This document shows, piece by piece, positions 24,959-64,000 of a stretch of 64,000 nt of DNA. The first letter of the stretch is position 1. Each line of letters opens with the position of its first letter. The stretch is taken from contig NC_012870.2 of assembly GCF_000003195.3 (NCBI RefSeq), positions 8,424,501-8,488,500 on the forward strand, written 5' to 3'. The translations under genes were made by a program, and so were the position numbers. This stretch comes from Sorghum bicolor (Eukaryota > Streptophyta > Magnoliopsida > Poales > Poaceae). Below the pieces are notes generated by a model. It saw only the letters and a program-made list of their open reading frames with translations, made no database searches and was not told the DNA's origin.

Positions 24959-25250
24959 TAACACCTACAGATCCTGGGTTTGTGGATTGCGTTGCTCTGT
25001 TCACATATGTTAAAGTGTGTTGATATTATGAGATTAGGTCCTAACTAGGAGTTCCCTACCAAGCTTACATCCTTACATAGTTTAGGTTTACAAAGTCGGC
25101 GCTCCTCTAATCTTTGTTACATATTACTTTCCTAGTCGGATACACTGATCCATTGGTCATACGAGATGAAGTTTCTAGCTAACTATACATCAATCAAAGT
25201 AGACGACGACGATAAAATCTGAAATTAATCCAACACACACGACGCACCAT

Positions 25251-25470
25251 GGGCGTGTTTGGTTCACTTCCCAGCGGATCCTGGGTAGCACTAGCCAGCC
25301 AGGCTAGGATTGGCCAGGATGAACACATGCAATAGGCACTTGTTTGGTTACCTGCATCAGCTCAGCGTGGCCAGCATTAGCCGCTGTTTGGTTATCTGCG
25401 CCCGCATGGAATTCAAATCCTGGACATACAAGGTGGTGTTTGGTTGCTTGCATACAAGGTGGTGTTGTCA
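25251..25470. repeat. Subterminal TGTTTGGTT repeats of the Harbinger element (left end)
   Basis: The terminal GCGTGTTTGGTT is followed by TTGTTTGGTTACCTGC, CTGTTTGGTTATCTGC and GTGTTTGGTTGCTTGC at intervals of about 50-80 bp. CATACAAGGTGGTGTT occurs twice. The right end has two inverted copies (ACCAAACACCG and CAACCAAACACG). Repeated subterminal motifs are typical binding sites for transposase or its Myb-like partner; that role is inferred here. Confidence 0.7.
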
Positions 25471-25518
25471 CCAGTTTGCACCTTTGGTAAGGTTACCACT
25501 ACCCACACACAGAAGCTG

Positions 25519-25824
25519 TTACAGCAGCTTCCAAATTAGAAAGCCTATTAGCAAAACTACAACCAGCAGTATTACAATTTTAAAAACTGCAAGCCACAAG
25601 GCGAGGCTCCCATCGTTTCCATCATTGTAGACATGAGGTGGATTGACAGGTTGTAGAAGAGGAGGATTGTCAAGGGAATGTCCATAGAAGGCTTGCACAG
25701 CTTGGTTTCTGCTGTTGTATTTCTTATAGCAGTTACCCTTGAAGCCATTCACCTGCTCATGTGCTTCTTCCAAGGTAGAATACACACCCGGTTTCTTGCC
25801 AACGTGAACCACATACCAAGCCAT
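25519..25824 (-). CDS. RNase H1-N/viroplasmin-type domain fused to a C-terminal membrane helix (101 aa)
   Basis: A single uninterrupted frame. Residues 1-48 (MAWYVVHVGKKPGVY, HEQVNGFKG, NCYKKYNSRNQAVQAFYG) match the small N-terminal RNase H1 domain, also called the caulimovirus viroplasmin-like domain, which binds RNA-DNA hybrids or double-stranded RNA in known proteins. The usual W in the Y-x-x-W-E-E segment is L here (STLEEAHEQ); the copy at 63.5 kb has W. Residues 49-74 are a Pro/Asn-rich linker. Residues 75-100 are a strongly hydrophobic helix (LWLAVFKIVILLVVVLLIGF) ending in WKLL, so a tail-anchored protein is predicted. There is no catalytic RNase H domain. The gene lies near the left end of the Harbinger element on the strand of the transposase. 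Its function in the element is unknown. Confidence 0.72.
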   Translation of the reverse strand: MAWYVVHVGKKPGVYSTLEEAHEQVNGFKGNCYKKYNSRNQAVQAFYGHSLDNPPLLQPVNPPHVYNDGNDGSLALWLAVFKIVILLVVVLLIGFLIWKLL

Positions 25825-26560
25825 AGCTGTTCAAAAAAAGAGTAGCAAGAAAAATAGACAGAATCTGCTGAGTTATAAATATTATCATAAAAGTAACATC
25901 GGTGTCAAATAATAGGGGCCTCAGATATTTTTTTTTCTGCACAAATTTTGTTTAAGACAATCATCCCTGGTGGCCACTTTCATGATCCCAAATAACTGTT
26001 TCATGTGTACCATGGGGCCATGAGACACTCCATCCTCAGCCATCAGGTGGTAAGTCCAAACCTGTTGCATTGGGGATGGATGTATCTCATGTCCTGATGA
26101 TACCCACGAATGAAAGGTAGCCATACAATACAACAGCAACTAAACATGTAATGCCACCTCAGATTGTCATGTGCACAGATAAGGTAGTAATCATTGGTAG
26201 CTCTAATAGAAAATCCAAAGAATTGTGGCACCCATGGCATCTGGAGTACCATAAACTTCTTGCCATCACCTTGAGTCATGAACCCAATTGTTGCTAAGTA
26301 AAGTTTATGGTTCCTTCAGATGTGATGAATGACACAAGAAAAACAGTATAGCCACCTCATACTTTTTTTGTCATCATAGGCCACAACAAAACCTCAGAGT
26401 ATGTAATGAAACTCATACATGCCATGGAAGTATGTGTAGTGAGCTGGCCACACAACAAAGTCAGAAACAACCTTGTGTAGGCCAACTCACTATCACATAC
26501 TTTGATGACAGGCATGACATAATATAACTTAGTCATACTCATCATTGGCAAACAAACAAG

Positions 26561-26680
26561 AAAACATCACTGGCAAGATTAGGCATGTGCTCAGACCAAA
26601 TAAGAAAACATCACTGGCAAGATTAGGCATGTGCTCAGACCAAATAAGAAAACATCACAGGCAAAGATTAGGCATGTTCC
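26561..26680. repeat. 44-bp tandem repeat in the Harbinger element
   Basis: Units start at 26561, 26605 and 26649 with AAAACATCACTGGCAAGATT; the third is partial and diverged. Non-coding. Similar short repeats (CATCATAGCACATGCCTACT near 28090-28170, AGTCATCACAGCAT near 28262-28340) lie in the spacer upstream of the Myb-like gene. Confidence 0.8.
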
Positions 26681-26985
26681 ATAGGCACATGCTCAGATCA
26701 TGTTCAGAACCATCTTGGTTCTCATCAAGTACATCCAACAACTTGGTTGATCTAGGATGGAAGGGTAGGGTTACACTAGAATATGTAAGACACTAACTAT
26801 AAGTTAGTGTTAGTAGGAAGAATGCAGGATTAGATCAACTGCACAAAAGAGTAGGTTAGCCCACTACACAACCACCAACTGCAGTAAGCTATGCACAAAA
26901 GAAACCACCACTGCACACCATCAAGCAGTCACCTAAAGAGGGGCATGCACTGCACAAAAGGATCAACCACCAGCTTCCAAGCACC

Positions 26986-28045
26986 TCAAACATAGTAGTG
27001 CTTGGCCAAGAAAGTCCTCAGCCACAAGACACGGTGGGAGTCAACCATCTTGACAAAAGTTGTGCCCAGGGCCTTGTTGTCCAACAGGTGACCATAAGCA
27101 CACATCAGGGCTTCGTCAGTGAAGCCAGGCACATACATCACAGCTGCATACAACTCTAGATGAGAATCCTCCACCTTAGTAGACCTAATAGCATCTGCAA
27201 CATCCCTCACAGCATCTGCCATTCCAGTGAACAACACCACATCCTCATCAGCAAGCACAGATCTCTTCCTCTTGTTCCCAACAACCACCTCAGGTTTTGT
27301 AGCATCAACGGTGTCAGTTTTCCCACTAAGAAGCTCTGTTGGGTTAGGCTTGAGGGAGCTCTCAGCAAAGTCAGATGGAGTACCCAGTGGTTCATTTGAT
27401 CCCATGGCATACTTACCAGTTGCCTGACCATTTCCAAAGATGATCATCATCTGCTTGTAGTGTTGGATGGGTTTGTTCAGGAGCTCAGCATCTTTGGGAT
27501 GTGCCTACACAAACAATGAGAAGTGGCAGTTAGCATTGAAATAAGTTTGAAGTCAGAAGTGGACACTCTGTGCTCAGATTGCTTACTTGGGTATGGCCAT
27601 TGTAGTGCTCCTCCTCTAGCACAATCATGCATGCATCCTCATCCCACAAAGCACCACTTAGCTCCCTCAGTTTGGTCACTCTCACCCACCTCTGCCTCCA
27701 CTTTCTCAGGTGGTTGTACACCTGGGTACCAGTGACCTCTTGCCCACTGAACTCATGAAGCGCTTTGGCTACCTGATTAAGGTGAACTTCCTTGAAACCC
27801 TTATCAGTCCTAACTCCAATGGTTATGAGCTGGCACATGTGGCGCAGCACAAACCCAGACATAGGGTCAGTCCACCTCAGATTTGTCCTCTGCTGAGCTA
27901 GAACCTGTGATGCAGTTGTGAAACCAGCACCAACATCCCCATGGCCAACATCCCCAGCCCCAATCTCCCCATGACCAACATCCCCAGCAACATCCTCAAC
28001 TCCAGGAAACACAAGGTGGTCAGCAGGCATGCCCCCCTCAGCCAT
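26986..28045 (-). CDS. Myb/SANT-like protein of a PIF/Harbinger element (325 aa, two exons)
   Basis: The model is complement(join(26986..27504, 27587..28045)), a GT-AG intron with the frame intact. Residues about 55-150 are a Myb/SANT-like DNA-binding domain: LRWTDPMSGFVLRHMCQLI, KALHEFSGQEVTGTQVYNHL and KWRQRWVRVTKLRELSGALWD. The N-terminus has two copies of a VGHGxxGAGD repeat. The C-terminal half has KRKRSVLADEDVV, a possible nuclear signal, and a helical tail with MYVPGFTDEALMCAYGHLLD. In PIF/Harbinger elements such a protein partners the transposase, helps its nuclear entry and binds element DNA. It lies downstream of the transposase gene on the same strand. Nothing looks broken. Confidence 0.85.
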
Positions 28046-29072
28046 GGCCTATTTGCAGAGCCAGATGGCACTTAGAAACAGAATAACAGAAATCATCATA
28101 GCACATGCCTACTTGCCTCAGTTCATCAGTAGTACTAACACAAATCATCATAGCACATGCCTACTTGCCTCAGTTCATAAGAAGTAATAACAAAAAATGA
28201 AGTAATCATCATTGCATATGTACAAAGCCTCAGATGCAGTGCAGTATCTAAAGAAATAAAGAGTCATCACAGCATTTGTCCATAGTCTCAGATCAAGTGC
28301 ATTATCTCAAGAAATAAATAGTCATCACAGCATATGTCCATAGTCTGAGCAAAACTTACAATACAGGTCTAGATGCGAGAGGAACCCTTATTAGCCCACA
28401 TGTGGGTTGCCCATTCATCCCTTTTAAGAGCCCAAGCAGCATTGTCATCCATATGGACATGGGGTAAAGGGGGGTTATTATTTGGCACCCAGGAGAACTC
28501 AGCAGGAACTACTTCATCAACCCCATGAGCAAGGATCCAATTATGTAATATACAACATGCAAGTACTAACTTCACTTGTGTCTTATAGGGATGGAAGGGT
28601 TTGTTGTCAATCATGCGAAAACGATTCTTTAAAGCACCGAAGGCACGTTCAACGGTCACTCTCAGGCTAGAGTGTCTCAAATTAAATAATTCCTTATAGT
28701 TTGTTGGGTTGTTCCTAGGACCAAATTCTTTGAGATGATACCTAGTCCCTCGATAAGGAGGAAGAAACCCTGGCCGACATGCATACCCAGCATCAACTAA
28801 GTAGAACTTGCCTAAAAGAAGAATGGGCAGACATTAGGTTCATGTGTATGTAACTATATGTTTTAAAAATGATAATAAGGGCCTTAGTTACCTGGTGCAA
28901 CCCTTAACCCATCATGTCTCTCTAGTGCATCAGCTAGAATGGTTGCATCATGTGCTGATCCCTCCCAGCCAGCCAAAACATAGGTGAATTTCAAGTCAAA
29001 GTCGACTGCAGCAAGGACATTTTGTGTTGGGTGGTTCTTGCTACCCCTAAATGCAGCTTGGATCTTGGCTGG

Positions 29073-30995
29073 TGAAAGCCCTAGTTTGGTTTTGGATAAT
29101 TGATGAAACCCTAGTACTAACCTCTATACTAAGTGTGTGTAGACTTAATGAGGTGGGTACATGCCAAGTGATGGAGCAAGTGATGATCATGGTGATGATA
29201 GTGATGACCACAAGATGATCAAGTGCTCAACTTGGAAAAGAAGAAAGAGAAAAACAAAACCCTATGGACATCAAGGCAAAGGTATTGCTTAGGGTTTTTG
29301 GTTTTGGTGATCAAGACACCATAGAGGGTGTGATCACATTTAGGATAAATAGCCATACTATAAAGAGGGGAATTCTTTGGCTAAGCGGTTATCAAGTGCC
29401 ACTAGGTGTCATTGTTCATGTGCATGCATTTAGAACCTAGTGAGCTAACTTAACTCCTTCAAAGAAAATGATTGTGAAAATGCTAACACACGTGCACTTG
29501 TTGGTACACACTTTGTGGTGTTGGCACACTTTGAGAAGGAGGTGGAGTTACAAAGGTAGAGAGAGGATAGGTTCGGCGCTTTTCGAGAAAATGAAGTGCA
29601 TATTTTCTATTACGCCGGGTGGAAATTTTGGAGAAGTCGCGGGAGTGTTTCTCGCTGAGGAACACTCACCGGACGCTGGCTCAGAGGCACCGGACGCTGT
29701 GTCTGAGCGTCCGGTGTGCAGACAGTGCCTGGCCCAGTTAGGGTAAGGCACCGGACGATAGGCACCGGATGCTGGGTTGAGCGTCCGGTGGTGCGCGTCC
29801 GGTGTGCGGGCGTCTTACGACCTTCTCTGCGCATGGGTCCGGTGAGCACCGGACGCTAAGGGTGCGTCCGGTGGCTTGCGTCCGGTGACCCTGCGAGTTT
29901 GCGAAGCTCTTTGCGCATGAGTCCGGTGTGCACCGGACGCGTCCGGTGCTAACTTGCTCAGCGTCCGGTGCTCTGCAGGTTACCGTTAGACTCTGACACG
30001 CGGCTGACGTTGGAGCACCGGACGCTGGTGTTGAGCGTCCGGTGCCCCTTTAAGAGCGTCCGGTGACCCCGAGTTTTGCCCAGTGAAAAGAGCCAACGGC
30101 TCTATTTGTATGAGGGGCAATAAATACGTGTTTGGCCGGCTTGGGGCTTACCCTCTTGGCATTCTAACATACTTGACATCCTTGTGAGCCTAAGCAAACA
30201 CCTCCCACTCATCTCCTTCATAGATTATACATCTTTGTGAGATTGGGAGTGTTTCCAAGTGCATTTGCTTGAGTGATTGCATCTAGTGGCACTTGGGGAT
30301 CGTTCTAGCTGCGGTTTTCTTGTTACTCTTGGTGGTTGCCGCCACCTAGACGGCTTGGAGCAGCGGAGGAGAATTGGCACGAGTTGGTGATTGTTCGTGG
30401 CCATCTCATGGTGATTGTGAGGGGTCTTGTACCTTCCCCGGCGGAGAGCCGAAAGGTAACTCTAGTGGATTGCTCGTGTCATTGAGTTACCTCACTTGTG
30501 GGTAGGTTCTTGTGGTGTCCTAGTGAGGACGAGGTTCGTGCTACACCTCTTAGCCACCGAACCACCAAGTGTTGGTCGACACAACGGGGACGTAGCGTGC
30601 CGGCAAGCACGTGAACCTCGGGAGAAAAATTGTGTGTCTCCATTATGATTGTTCATTGGATTTCTCCTGGTGATTGGACTTCATATTATTGATTGGTCCA
30701 TCCCCTCTACGCGGCGGTATAAAGTTCAAACCATCTCTTTTACATTCCCGCAAACTAGAGTAGCTTACTTACTTGTATAGAAACTTTAGGTAGCTTTCTA
30801 GTGTAAGTAGTGACATAGCTCTTGTGTGCCTAGTGATTATATCAACTAGAATTGTTGGATAGGTGGCTTGCAAACACCCCATTAGAGCTAGAGCAAAAAG
30901 CTTCGCTTTGTTTTTTACTAACCTCTTGCTCTAGTGAGTTTGTAGAATATTTAAATAGGCTATTCACCCCCCTCTAACCATATTAGGACCTTTCA
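29073..30995 (+). mobile_element. Solo LTR (1923 bp) in the transposase gene
   Basis: It begins TGAAAGCCCTAG and ends GGACCTTTCA (TG...CA), flanked by the 5-bp duplication GCTGG (29068-29072 and 30996-31000). There are no internal retrotransposon genes and no second LTR, so it is a solo LTR left by recombination. Related to the inverted copy at 40900..42812: same ends, similar length and the same array of GCGTCCGGTG motifs. I do not assign the retrotransposon family. Confidence 0.88.
29660..30070. repeat. Array of CACCGGACGC / GCGTCCGGTG motifs in the solo LTR
   Basis: The 8-10-bp motif recurs more than fifteen times in both orientations (e.g. CACCGGACGCTGG, GAGCGTCCGGTGC) within about 400 bp. 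The second solo LTR has a comparable array at about 41815-42195. It could be a transcription-factor site cluster, a hairpin-forming region or a recombination-prone repeat. Confidence 0.85.
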
Positions 30996-31659
30996 GCTGG
31001 CACTTTAGCATAGATATGTGTACCATCTATTGCCCCAACACAGTCCTACATGGCATGCAAAAGTGCATAGTGAATTGACATGAACCCATGCAGCAACAAC
31101 CTAAATTCTAAATGACAAATTATTTACCTTCAAATATGGATACCACCTTGGGCTGTTGCTAACCTTAAGGGGTGTCTCATTGGATGGAGGTCTAATCATA
31201 TCTTGCCTAAGTTCACCAATTGCATACAACACCTCTTTGAAATGGCGATGGACAGTCTCTATAGACCTTCTCCAGTTTTGCCTAATCACTCTAAAACGTT
31301 GGTTATGCCCCACAATATGTAGAAACATAGCAACTTGCTCTTCTACACAACAATTAATGTTGTCTGCTAGCAATTTTCTCTCCCTAAGCAAGTTACACAA
31401 CCTAAAGAAGGGTGCCCTTCTCATGCGAAGCATGTTCACACACTCAACATCATTGTAGTTGTAAATTAAGTCTAGATTCTTTTGCCTTTCCTCATCCCAC
31501 TTACTCAAAGGACCATAACTGATCTGAGGCCTTGAGGATTGAATCATTCTAATCCTAGCAAAAAGTAGGGCATACATAGCAGCAACAAGAGTTGCAGCAC
31601 GAGCAAAAAGCATGCGCCTCTTCTCTTGCAAATCCATCTAGAAGATAAAACATGGAATA

Positions 31660-32520
31660 AATGCTTAGACTAGGACATAAGCTCAGACTAACTGAAAATC
31701 ATCATAGACTTGGACAAATGCTCAGACATAATGAACAATCATCATAGACTTCAACATATGCTCAGACATAACAATGTAATCATCGACTTGAGCAATAGCT
31801 TAGCAAAAAAGGGATCTTCATATAATTGCTCTTAATATTAAAAGTACTACATGCATCCAAATCAAAGAAGGCAAAACTCTGTATCACATGGTGCAGATTA
31901 GAGGGAGGGGGGTAGGGGGAGGAGATGAACAAATTACCCACGTCAACGCACAAGACCCAGCAAAGCACAACAGCAGTTCAGGGGACGTCGGATCTGCACG
32001 CACAGATCCACAACAAACATTTACACAAGTTAGGGTTTACAAATCGGTAACAAAAAGAGGAGAAAATGAGGGAGAACTCACCGGCTATGAAAATCGTCAG
32101 ATCCACTTGCCCTGCAACAAATCCAGCGAGAAAGAAATCAATAGCATGAAACAAATCAAACCAAGAACAAAGGGGGAGAGGGAGAAGACCACGTACCCTA
32201 GGAACCGGCGGCGCAGACGTGGAGCGACGAGAAGACAGGGAGGAAGCGGGAAAGGAGATATATAGGCGGTGAATGGCGGGAAAGAGGGAGGTAACCCTAG
32301 AAACTTCGCGCCATCTCCCCGCGCACGGAATCGCCGAGCGCGCGAGCACGCGAGAGCACGGAGCGATCCAGGCTGAAGAAAAACGGCCGATTCGAGCGTA
32401 GCTTCGGAGCCTGGCTCCGGGGATCCTTTTGCACGGGATAAGCCAGGCTAGAGAGAAGAGAAGGGAACCAAACACCGAAACGCTACATCCAGGGAGCCTG
32501 GTTCGCCCATATGCGGGCAA
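31660..32520 (-). promoter_or_regulatory. Right-end leader/promoter region of the Harbinger element
   Basis: Sequence between the transposase start and the right terminus. It holds a tandem repeat with TCATCATAGACTT and ATGCTCAGACATAA (about 31660-31790). A GC-rich part near 32280-32480 follows. The two inverted TGTTTGGTT motifs at the end are at about 32467 and 32520. Transposase transcription should start here, given the gene order. No definite TATA box assigned. Confidence 0.4.
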
Positions 32521-32679
32521 CCAAACACGCCCCATATGTCCGGGGAGCTGGGTCTGCCCTGTGTGATAACTAAAAGCAGCCATAACGCGCCAACGTGGCT
32601 AGTAGCCCCTAACCTCCACATATGCTGCAAATCTCCAATGTCAAATGCTACAGATATCTATGGTTTCGTGAACCATTAC

Positions 32680-40893: not shown

Positions 40894-43034
40894 CTCCCTT
40901 GAAAGGTCCAAATGGCTAGAGGGGGGTGAATAGCCTATTTAAAATTCTACAAACTTTACTAAACAAGTGAGTTAGTAAAATAAGTGGCGAAGCTATTCTA
41001 GCACTAGCACAACTAAGCTATGCAAGCCACCTATACAAGTCTAGCAAGAAGGCTAAACACTAAACCACAACAACTAGAGAAGGCTACACAACAACTCTAA
41101 ACTAACAAGAACTAAGCTACACAAGCTAAACTAACAAGGTAGGCAAGTAAGTAAAGAGAGGAGAGTGATTGTTATACCAACGTTGTAGAGTAGAGATATA
41201 TCCAATCAATCACTCACAATCACAAGAGAAACCTCGGCAAGAGAAGACACAAGATTTTTTACCGAGGTTCACTTGCTTCCCGGCAAGCTACTCCTCGTTG
41301 TGGCGATACACCCACTTGATGGATCACGAGCTAATTGTCAATCCAAAGCCAAACCCTCAGCGGGTGCCGCACATCCACTCACAAGATGAGGATCCTCCAA
41401 GCCACGAGCAATCCACTAGAGTAGCCAATTGCGATCTCCCGCGGGGAAGGCTCAAGAACCCCTCACAAGTCACTTGGTGAGGCTCGAAACAATCTCCAAT
41501 CACGAGCTCAACACCACCGCTGCTACAAGCCGTCTAGAGCGTCGGGAAACACCCAAGAGTAACAAGAAATCCGCAGCAAACTCAAGAATCAAGTGCTACT
41601 AAATGCAACTCTCAAAGCAATGCACTTGAATCTTACTCAATCTCACTAGGATTAGCAATCAAGCAAGGAGATGAGTGGAGGGAGTGTTCTCTAGCTCAAT
41701 GTATGCCTCAACTAATCAAATGTGCAAGAGAGAGCCTCCCAAAACCGGCCACCTTCTATTTATAAGCCCCTCAAAGAAACTAGCCGTTGGCTGTTTTCAC
41801 TGGGCTGAAAACGAGGGCACCAGACGCTACTAAGTGAGCACCGGACGCTCTACCCCCTACGTCCGGTGCACTGGAGTTGGCCACGTGTCCTCTTTGAATC
41901 TCGCGTGTCAGATCCTAACGGCTACCTGCAACACACCGGACGCTCTGCAAGTCCACACCGGACGCGTCCGGTGCACACCGGACTCATGCGCAGAGAGTTT
42001 GTCAAACTCGCGACCTCACCGGACGCTGGGCACCGGACAGTCCGGTGCTCACCGGACTCGTGCGCAGAGAGGGTTGCAAAAACCCCTCACACCGGACGCT
42101 CTCAGAGTGCGTCCGGTGCTCAACCCTAGCAGGGTCAAGCACACCGGACTCTGAGGCCAGCGTCCGGTGCCTACGCACTCAACGTCCGGTGAGTGTTTCT
42201 CAGAGAGAAAGCACTCCCGCGACTTCTCCAAAATTTCCCATCGGCGCAATAGAAAATATACACTTATTTTTCTCAAAAGCGCCGAATCCCGCCTCGCAAG
42301 CTCGGCGGGAGGGAGAGAGGAACCCACACCCCTCTCAACCCTAGGAACTCCACCTTCTTTGTAAATGTACTAACACCAACAAGTGTCCACCACCAAAGTG
42401 CAAGTGTGTTAGCTTTTCACAAACATTTTCACCAAAGGAGTTAAGTTAGCACTTTACTAGATCCTAATGCATATGCTCATGATATGGACCTAGTAGCACT
42501 TGATTCGAGAGATGACCGTGATTTCCCCTCTTGATAGTCGGCTATCTATCCTAAACCCGGTCAATCACTTCTCTACTCATCTTAGACCGGCAAAAGTAAA
42601 ACCCTATGTTTATATCTTTGCCTTGATAACTTTGCTCCTCGTCTATCACCATGATCTTCACTCATGCTTCATCCCTTTGTGATCATGTGGCCACCTTTCC
42701 ATGCCACCATGCACCTTCATCACATGTGTTGCTATACCTAACTCGAATCACTTAAACACAAAGCATTAGCAACTTGGTGTCATTAATTACCAAAACCAAA
42801 CTTGGACTTTCATCCCTCTGCTCCATTGAAAGTGTTATTTTTTATTTTTATATTTCTTCTTTGATCGTTTGTCTTATTCAATTTTTATATAAATAGTAAA
42901 ATAAATAAGTAATTGTTAAATTATTTTTATTAACAAAACAAGTCATAACAAAATAAATAATATTTATATAAAGATGAATAGTCAAGTAAGAACTCCGAAA
43001 GTCAAAAACGACACTTTCAGTTAGACGAAGGGAG
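40894..43034. mobile_element. Stowaway MITE split by a solo LTR
   Basis: Left piece CTCCCT (40894-40899) directly abuts the solo LTR. On its other side the sequence continues TCCCTCTGCTCCATTGAAAGTG and ends ACACTTTCAGTTAGACGAAGGGAG, flanked by TA on both outer sides. Removing the LTR and one TCCCT rebuilds a typical CTCCCTCTGCTCC terminus, so the LTR landed 6 bp inside the MITE. Confidence 0.78.
40900..42812 (-). mobile_element. Solo LTR (1913 bp), inverted relative to the copy at 29.07 kb
   Basis: On the plus strand it starts TGAAAGGTCCAAATGG and ends CTTGGACTTTCA, flanked by the 5-bp duplication TCCCT (40895-40899 and 42813-42817). Its reverse complement matches the ends of the LTR at 29073..30995, and it has the same GCGTCCGGTG array (about 41815-42195). 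No internal retrotransposon region. Confidence 0.88.
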
Positions 43035-63219: not shown

Positions 63220-64000
63220 GGACGTGTTTGGTTCACTTCCCAGCGGATCCTGGGTAGCACTAGCCAGCCAGGCTAGGATTGGCCAGGATGAACACATGCA
63301 ACAGGCACTTGTTTGGTTACCTGCATCAGCTCAGCGTGGCCTGCATTAGCTGCTGTTTGGTTACCTGCGCCCGCATGGAATTCAAATCCTGGACATACAA
63401 GGTGGTGTTTGGTTGCTTGCATACAAGGTGGTGTTGTCACCAGTTTGCACCTTTGGTAAGGTTACCACTACCCACACACAGAAGCTGTTACAGCAGCTTC
63501 CAAATTAGAAAGCCTATTAGCAAAACTACAACTAGCAGTATTACAATTTTAAAAACTGCAAGCCACAAGGCGAGGCTCCCATCGTTTCCATCATTGTAGA
63601 CATGAGGTGGATTGACAGGTTGTAGAAGAGGAGGATTGTCAAGGGAATGTCCATAGAAGGCTTGCACAGCTTGGTTTCTGCTGTTGTATTTCTTATAGCA
63701 GTTACCCTTAAGCCATTCACCTGCTCATGTGCTTCTTCCCAGGTAGAATACACACCCGGTTTCTTGCCAACGTGAACCACATACCAAGCCATAGCTGTTC
63801 AAGAAAAGAGTAGCAAGAAAAATAGGCAGAATTTGCTGAGTTATAAATATTATCATAAAAGTAACATCAGTGTCAAATAATAGGGGCCTCAGATATTAAT
63901 TTTTTCTGCACAAATTTTGTTTAAGACAATCATCCCTGGTGGCCACTTTCATGATACCAAATAACTGTTTCATGCGTACCATGGGGCCTTGAGACACTCC
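63220..64000 (-). mobile_element. Second copy of the Harbinger element (left end, cut by the window)
   Basis: From GGACGTGTTTGGTTCACTTCC at 63220 the sequence follows the element at 25251 almost base for base to the window end (about 780 bp), including the subterminal TGTTTGGTT repeats and the small viroplasmin-type gene. The flank before it is TAA, the expected kind of 3-bp duplication. The terminal G-G-G is G-G-A here. The rest lies outside the window. Confidence 0.9.
63488..63792 (-). pseudogene. Frameshifted copy of the viroplasmin-domain membrane protein gene
   Basis: It starts MAWYVVHVGKKPGVYSTWEE with the canonical Trp that the copy at 25.8 kb has lost. One G is missing in the codon region after HEQVNG (CCCTTAAGCC here against CCCTTGAAGCC), which shifts the frame and ends the domain early. 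Beyond the deletion the sequence still matches the linker and membrane helix of the first copy. The nucleotide sequence differs from the first copy at only a few positions. Confidence 0.85.

Follow-up and report, generated by a model that had tools for sequence, protein, structure and literature searches.

Structure of the Element and Its Genes

The analysed window, i.e., the whole stretch of 64,000 nucleotides of Sorghum bicolor DNA, contained a PIF/Harbinger-type element with a transposase gene, a Myb gene and a third gene, arranged in this order and all on one strand. The first-pass annotation, made from the letters alone, had placed a 101-aa frame within the ends of the element and on the transposase strand, and this was confirmed. 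The frame coordinates were exact, with the stop codon included in the span. The following features were located (positions in the window).

25248–25250, no strand: target-site duplication CAT, left
25251–32532, minus strand: PIF/Harbinger element of 7,282 bp with 14-bp inverted ends and a 3-bp duplication
25251–25264, plus strand: terminal inverted repeat GGGCGTGTTTGGTT, third-gene end
25437–25445, 25385–25393, 25341–25349 and 25256–25264, minus strand: four copies of AACCAAACA, third-gene end
25519–25824, minus strand: third gene, 101 aa (ORF, Pfam, family profile, AlphaFold2 and Foldseek)
25827–25828, minus strand: candidate 3' splice site (pyrimidine-rich tract and AG) in the sequence just before the third-gene ATG
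26986–27504, minus strand: exon 2 of the Myb/SANT gene, stop included
27587–28045, minus strand: exon 1 of the Myb/SANT gene (Myb_DNA-bind_3, E = 2.4e-10 for the ORF)
28369–28811, minus strand: transposase exon 3 (end of DDE_Tnp_4), from the L003 gene model, splice signals checked
28892–31045, minus strand: transposase exon 2, containing the start of DDE_Tnp_4 and interrupted by the 29073–30995 insert
29073–30995, no strand: solo-LTR-like insert of 1,923 bp (TGAAAG...CTTTCA) with GCTGG on both sides
31128–31637, minus strand: transposase exon 1
32519–32532, minus strand: terminal inverted repeat GGGCGTGTTTGGTT, transposase end
32533–32535, no strand: target-site duplication CAT, right
63220–64000, minus strand: second element copy (L002, 3,822 bp in all, target-site duplication TAA), running off the window end

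The gene models were chosen among open joins in another copy of the element, L003, and then placed on the window. The L003 transposase model comprised three exons separated by introns of 82 and 80 bp, with the DDE_Tnp_4 domain detected in exon 2 (E = 4.4e-9) and exon 3 (E = 2.9e-11). The Myb model joined two exons across an 82-bp intron and encoded a 325-aa protein with a Myb_DNA-bind_3 match (E = 1.2e-10). The window copy followed the L003 layout with GT–AG borders and an interrupted exon 2, and matched other copies of its subfamily (subfamily A, defined below) at 92–98%. The interrupting insert was missing from all other copies aligned over the insertion point (six of A and two of B), and the length of the element without it was 5,359 bp. 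The first-pass annotation was silent on this insert and on the Trp to Leu replacement in the third gene described below. The window copy cannot itself be regarded as a working element. The second copy mentioned in that annotation does exist, but its third-gene frame was shifted. A 69% similar copy of the LTR-like insert was also noticed on the other strand of the window, at 40900–42627.

The transposase with its DDE_Tnp_4-type domain (scored in L003), the second gene with a Myb/SANT domain and the short terminal inverted repeats starting with G are all features of PIF/Harbinger elements. The 14-bp repeat GGGCGTGTTTGGTT was perfect in eight of the nine elements measured, with one change in L002, and a perfect 3-bp target-site duplication flanked all 11 elements examined. 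The available part of a survey gives TWA as the duplicated sequence of the PIF/Harbinger group (PMC4482050), but this was not the rule here: TAA or TTA was found in 5 of 11 elements (L002, L004, L007, L009 and L024), with CAT in the window copy and TTT, ATA, TAG, CAA and GTA elsewhere. Because the transposase, the Myb gene, the ends and the 3-bp duplications agree with this assignment despite the non-TWA sites, the window element is assigned to PIF/Harbinger at the superfamily level. The AACCAAACA copies fell between the third gene and the element end with nearly equal spacing in subfamilies A and B, and are putative binding sites. The same ends with a TTA duplication also delimited a 331-bp element (L009:501–831), a short non-autonomous relative.

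Domain, Predicted Fold and Tail of the Third-Gene Protein

The search of Pfam revealed a PF01693 domain (Cauli_VI/RNase H1 N-terminal domain) at aa 2–43 of the third-gene protein (E = 1.7e-14; 54.2 bits, with a curated cut-off of 21), and the scores in three other subfamilies were 52–58 bits. The family profile also matched RNase H1 N-terminal domains of known structure (1qhk, E = 1.3e-10; 3bsu, E = 7e-10). The AlphaFold2 model (mean pLDDT 76.8, pTM 0.46) consisted of this domain and a C-terminal helix at aa 71–100, with pLDDT of 92–93 in the helix blocks and about 50 in the linker. The top Foldseek matches of the model were chains of 3bsu, a structure of the hybrid-binding domain of human RNase H1 in complex with RNA/DNA (target-normalised TM 0.83, 1.3 Å, probability 1.00, best E 9.6e-3), followed by the yeast hybrid-binding domain (E 0.22); none of the Foldseek matches had an E below 1e-3. 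The predicted structure thus agreed, in the 3bsu comparison, with the fold of solved hybrid-binding domains, and the RNase H1-N/viroplasmin-type domain that the first-pass annotation had read from the sequence was borne out. The same holds for the hydrophobic tail placed there after a linker, as the Kyte–Doolittle maximum reached 3.2 over 19 residues. The model predicted a single hydrophobic helix near the C-terminus, as expected of a tail-anchored protein. No catalytic RNase H domain was detected by Pfam in the 101-aa protein, which is thus not an RNase H1 enzyme.

The family residues Y4, W18, Y33, K34 and K35 were the counterparts of Y29, W43, F58, K59 and K60 of the human hybrid-binding domain, which we take to be its nucleic-acid contact residues, and were invariant or nearly so in a 12-sequence alignment. 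From its domain family, the third-gene protein may bind RNA–DNA hybrids or dsRNA, and the hydrophobic tail would be expected to insert in the membrane of the ER/nuclear envelope or of a different organelle. An AG was present 2–4 nt before the third-gene ATG in 9 of 10 loci of groups A, B, C, D and E, having been lost in L041. This is in keeping with a splice acceptor, considered here a candidate site.

Occurrence of the Third Gene in the Sorghum Genome

The genome contained 138 sites of the element end, 76 forward and 62 reverse. Whole-element pairs (L001 and L003–L008) were picked among the first 100 of them, and L002 was the second window copy. All eight of these further end-to-end elements with a transposase carried the third gene, with its ATG 573–639 bp from the same element end. 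They formed subfamilies A (L001–L005 and L007) and B (L006 and L008), the first transposase exons of the latter being about 82% identical to that of the window and its third-gene proteins 45–46%. No Myb match was found in L002 and L004 (A) or L008 (B), which are known deletion copies. Among 20 regions with a single end, 18 were without a transposase, Myb or third-gene match, one (L029) was an A copy and one (L024) a different element. A stretch of about 142 bp was 93–94% identical between A and B (window 26195–26336, L006:2317–2458 and L008:2318–2459), the other aligned A–B pieces being 69–87% identical; it was located between the Myb gene and the third gene in A and inside a transposase intron in B.

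The third-gene protein had 119 genome matches at E ≤ 1, corresponding to at least 105 loci when neighbours within 1.5 kb were merged. Exon 2 of the Myb gene had 114 matches at E ≤ 1e-3, i.e., at least 95 loci. A Myb exon 2 was located at most 5 kb upstream of the third gene and on the same strand at 56 of 105 loci and, from the Myb side, a third gene lay within 5 kb at 56 of 95. This genome-wide association was measured on the Myb exon and not on the transposase. The 56 gaps between the two genes were 0.8–1.6 kb long in 39 cases, below 500 bp in 10, 500–800 bp in 2 and above 1.6 kb in 5.

The other 49 of the 105 third-gene loci, some of them the deletion copies L002, L004 and L008, had no Myb exon within 5 kb, which would suit an independent host family of small membrane proteins, in which Harbinger elements inserted, or of which they carried pieces, by chance. 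Such a family is highly improbable given the layout of the loci: at E ≤ 1e-3, 49 of 84 third-gene loci had the Myb exon on their own strand and no more than 5 kb upstream, and none of the 84 had it downstream or on the opposite strand within this limit, the mean expected under random placement being 0.035 (200 placements, uniform over 65 Mb per contig as an approximation). An exact element end also followed at about 265–315 bp past the stop, where one was seen beyond full-length frames. Among 30 fetched records (29 distinct loci, L045 and L056 being one), 27 had a transposase or Myb match or an exact element end within about 1.5 kb; none of these was found within that distance in L046, L048 and L057.

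The identity of Myb exons beside third genes ranged from 100% down to 31%. Because these exons have diverged (31–48% identity), the Myb–third-gene arrangement was considered old in the lineage. The first-pass annotation had allowed for a truncated host gene captured once; the gene is, whatever its first origin, old in the lineage.

Two domain matches about 200–400 bp apart on one strand were observed at 12 loci known by their coordinates, e.g., C7:11622449/11622663, C3:51521427/51521779, C4:3213447/3213802 and C10:13715844/13716199. These appear as if two small hybrid-binding-type genes stood in tandem, duplicated in some families.

Selection on the Third Gene

Stops were present in 42 of the 119 genome matches, and many of the 119 were partial. 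The 15 full-length stop-free copies that were read belonged to five groups (two A-like, B, C and D), one of them (L052) having Leu instead of Met at the start. A further 15 stop-free matches at 26–33% identity, judged by their alignment span with the sequences unread, aligned from residue 1–2 to 92–97, i.e., through the tail. Another group of matches, with a 112-aa frame, was known by coordinates only.

The codon alignment of the 15 copies gave a whole-gene omega of 0.36 (GY) or 0.35 (MG), with lnL of -1662.3 against -1685.6 at omega = 1 (2ΔlnL = 46.6; lnL values at the best kappa of a grid). Most of this signal came from the domain, for which omega was about 0.2 (lnL -674.2 against -692.5 at omega = 1). 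The linker (omega about 0.55; -458.6 against -460.1, 2ΔlnL = 3.0) and the tail (omega about 0.6; -482.3 against -483.4, 2ΔlnL = 2.2) were indistinguishable from omega = 1. Purifying selection thus acts on the domain and on the gene as a whole, and not demonstrably on the tail or linker taken separately; in the tail, it is the hydrophobic character that is retained rather than the exact residues. A dN/dS near 1, which the first-pass annotation had named as a sign of a non-functional frame, was rejected for the whole gene and the domain, but not for the linker and tail. The possibility that tail and domain are equally constrained was examined and not upheld.

In the A–B comparison, dN/dS was 0.22 for the third gene (bootstrap 0.13–0.47, 751 of 1000 replicates usable), with dS near saturation, 0.07–0.12 for the transposase exons and 0.09–0.16 for the Myb exons, with dS high in several. 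The values within subfamilies (1.40 for L006/L008, 0.87 for L003/L004 and 0.14–0.29 for others) were based on few changes and were uninformative. When neutral decay of the third gene was simulated, an open frame with its tail still hydrophobic survived in 1.4% of the runs at 0.5 substitutions per site and in 0.3% at 0.8.

These data bear on whether the third gene is a mere passenger, i.e., a functionless host fragment captured early, the apparent conservation of which reflects shared descent. The frequent stops and partial matches, the omega values of the tail and linker, which do not demonstrate constraint, and the existence of an element without the gene (L024) would be expected of such a fragment. 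The domain and whole-gene omega significantly below 1 would not, nor would the stop-free copies in five groups, the rarity of an open frame with a tail after neutral decay, and the recurrence of the gene across deep families with similar spacing. A passenger was therefore judged very unlikely. The third gene, documented here in its place in the element and its recurrence, in the constraint on its domain and in the predicted fold and hydrophobic tail of its product, is probably a selected gene of a grass PIF/Harbinger lineage, encoding a tail-anchored protein of the duplex-binding type. This reading, proposed in outline by the first-pass annotation as a third gene with a domain and a membrane anchor, has gained stronger support than letters alone could give.

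Codon 18 (window 25771–25773), which encodes a nearly invariant Trp in the family, encoded Leu in the window copy and was a stop in L001, L005, L007, L042, L057 and L058, i.e., at six loci from two groups. The deamination of a methylated CCTGG/CCAGG site would explain this repeated loss.

Relatives in Sorghum and in Databases

The element L024 (L024:2789–7001) was 4,213 bp long, with the same type of ends (GGGCRTGTTTGGTT) and a TTA target-site duplication. Its transposase exons were 40–67% and its Myb gene 25% identical to those of the window element, and the profile search showed the third-gene domain to be absent from it. Because L024 is without the domain, the third gene is not essential to all relatives. 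As a two-gene relative, L024 is useful as a comparison.

Both the domain and the tail were present in subfamilies B, C and D. In a deeper group, E, the domain (MSGWYVVFKGKVPGIYSS...) was found at L057:1306–1752, L058:1339–1686 and L059:1462–1821. In L058 and L059, it lay beside a transposase 57–74% identical and the tail was not clear, and in L057 a hydrophobic stretch was present, though not at the C-end. No Myb match was detected in the fetched stretches of these three loci.

The first database search had 27 candidates, 22 of them at E ≤ 0.01, and a 12-sequence profile extended this to 260 proteins at E ≤ 1e-3 among 3,127 candidates. Together with the 119 genome matches at 105 loci, they rule out that the frame occurs only in the two window copies, the case in which the first-pass annotation would have abandoned the gene. 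The full-length database relatives of 40–63% identity (e.g., P0003, P0004, P0012, P0014, P0016, P0017, P0019 and P0020) kept both domain and tail, the latter ending near ...FLIWKLM. A near-complete domain was found in 107 of the 122 relatives examined, and 50 of these 107 also had a hydrophobic tail no more than 8 residues from the end; of the 57 others, many among the 40 listed were short or ended in a shifted frame. The database relatives were known by sequence alone, without host or neighbourhood, and Harbinger membership of the gene refers to the sorghum genome. Among viral contigs, 36 pattern matches included no relative.

Comparison with Known Systems

The DDE_Tnp_4 transposase and the Myb/SANT second gene are shared with plant PIF/Harbinger elements (PHIS, with the PIF, Pong and Nuwa groups), and so are, according to the available part of the survey, the short G-starting inverted ends and 3-bp duplications (PMC4482050). 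The usual description of PIF/Harbinger elements is one of mostly two-gene elements, with a transposase and a Myb-like partner. For the superfamily's groups, the survey text lists either one ORF or two (PMC4482050), whereas the sorghum element has the third gene in addition. Because this gene was kept across many families of one grass genome, the standard account of PIF/Harbinger is incomplete for this lineage.

Harbinger-type elements with an extra gene are described in the available part of another report (PMC12730594): PHISTA, a TET/JBP-carrying Harbinger of rust fungi encoding three proteins, and HarbingerS, a SET-domain Harbinger of oomycetes. They resemble the sorghum element in this respect, but their extra genes encode chromatin enzymes and belong to other kingdoms, the same part of the report mentioning no RNase H1-N domain in them and no Myb/SANT domain in the third proteins of PHISTA (PMC12730594). 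The literature search, which covered open-licence PMC papers, found no RNase H1-N/viroplasmin gene described in a PIF/Harbinger element. The nearest case in that literature was capE, a PF01693 gene in a DNA transposon, the HELPO1 Helitron of Pleurotus; as far as the available text goes, this is a fungal Helitron known from one long copy, with no membrane tail described (PMC4289320).

The third-gene protein shares a duplex-binding motif of about 40 aa (Pfam) with caulimovirus P6/viroplasmin and eukaryotic RNase H1, and carries neither the RNase H catalytic domain nor the rest of P6, having instead a predicted C-terminal membrane helix. Cerritelli is said to have described in 1998 the motif common to P6/viroplasmin and eukaryotic RNase H1. 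According to the available part of a review on CaMV P6, residues 80–110 are important for silencing suppression, the RNase H-like domain overlaps part 111–242, and different types of suppression may depend on other regions. The analogy with CaMV P6 is therefore loose, as the residues 80–110 lie outside the RNase H-like part.

Possible Role of the Third Gene

We infer that the third-gene protein would act as an accessory, not a catalytic, factor. Its N-terminal RNase H1-type duplex-binding domain would face the cytosol or nucleoplasm and would be joined by a short variable linker to a single C-terminal membrane helix. One may tentatively propose that, once inserted in a membrane, the protein tethers duplexed element RNA there and keeps it from the silencing machinery, to the benefit of the element. 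This silencing step is much less certain than the claim of a selected third gene.

The same anatomy could also serve as a trap at the membrane, in which the anchored domain would hold element RNA, hybrids or the Myb/transposase proteins outside the nucleus and so limit copy number instead of countering silencing. Accessory proteins with a self-limiting effect occur in other DNA transposons, and the third gene was kept together with the Myb gene, but selection for self-limitation would presumably be weaker than that for spread, and this reading is rather doubtful. The domain, being of the hybrid-binding type, could also bind R-loops or hybrids on element DNA and tether the element to the nuclear periphery, affecting its transcription or transposition. 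The inner nuclear membrane is accessible to tail-anchored proteins; nonetheless, such a nuclear-envelope tether was considered unlikely.

The VANC protein and the VANDAL element are presumably unrelated to the sorghum third gene and element. VANDAL elements (Mutator-like), as far as the source available to us goes, carry VANC anti-silencing proteins, and VANC, as an accessory gene of a DNA transposon directed against silencing, is the nearest functional model for the role proposed here. The shielding of element RNA was favoured because DNA transposons carry such anti-silencing genes. Its placement at the ER was favoured because membrane-bound polysomes are where plants produce phased siRNAs, as stated in the available part of the source (PMC5207768). 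In its most specific and somewhat doubtful form, the proposal is that grass Harbinger elements evolved an ER-anchored silencing suppressor, a duplex-RNA binder withholding element RNA from the phased-siRNA pathway. If true, a cut-and-paste transposon would act at the level of RNA, as a plant virus does.

Should the protein bind duplex RNA at membranes, one could ask directly whether the fight of DNA transposons against silencing extends to the RNA stage, as gain- and loss-of-gene assays with this element are feasible in yeast or plant cells. Such genes may already be filed in databases under names such as "viroplasmin and RNaseH domain-containing protein".
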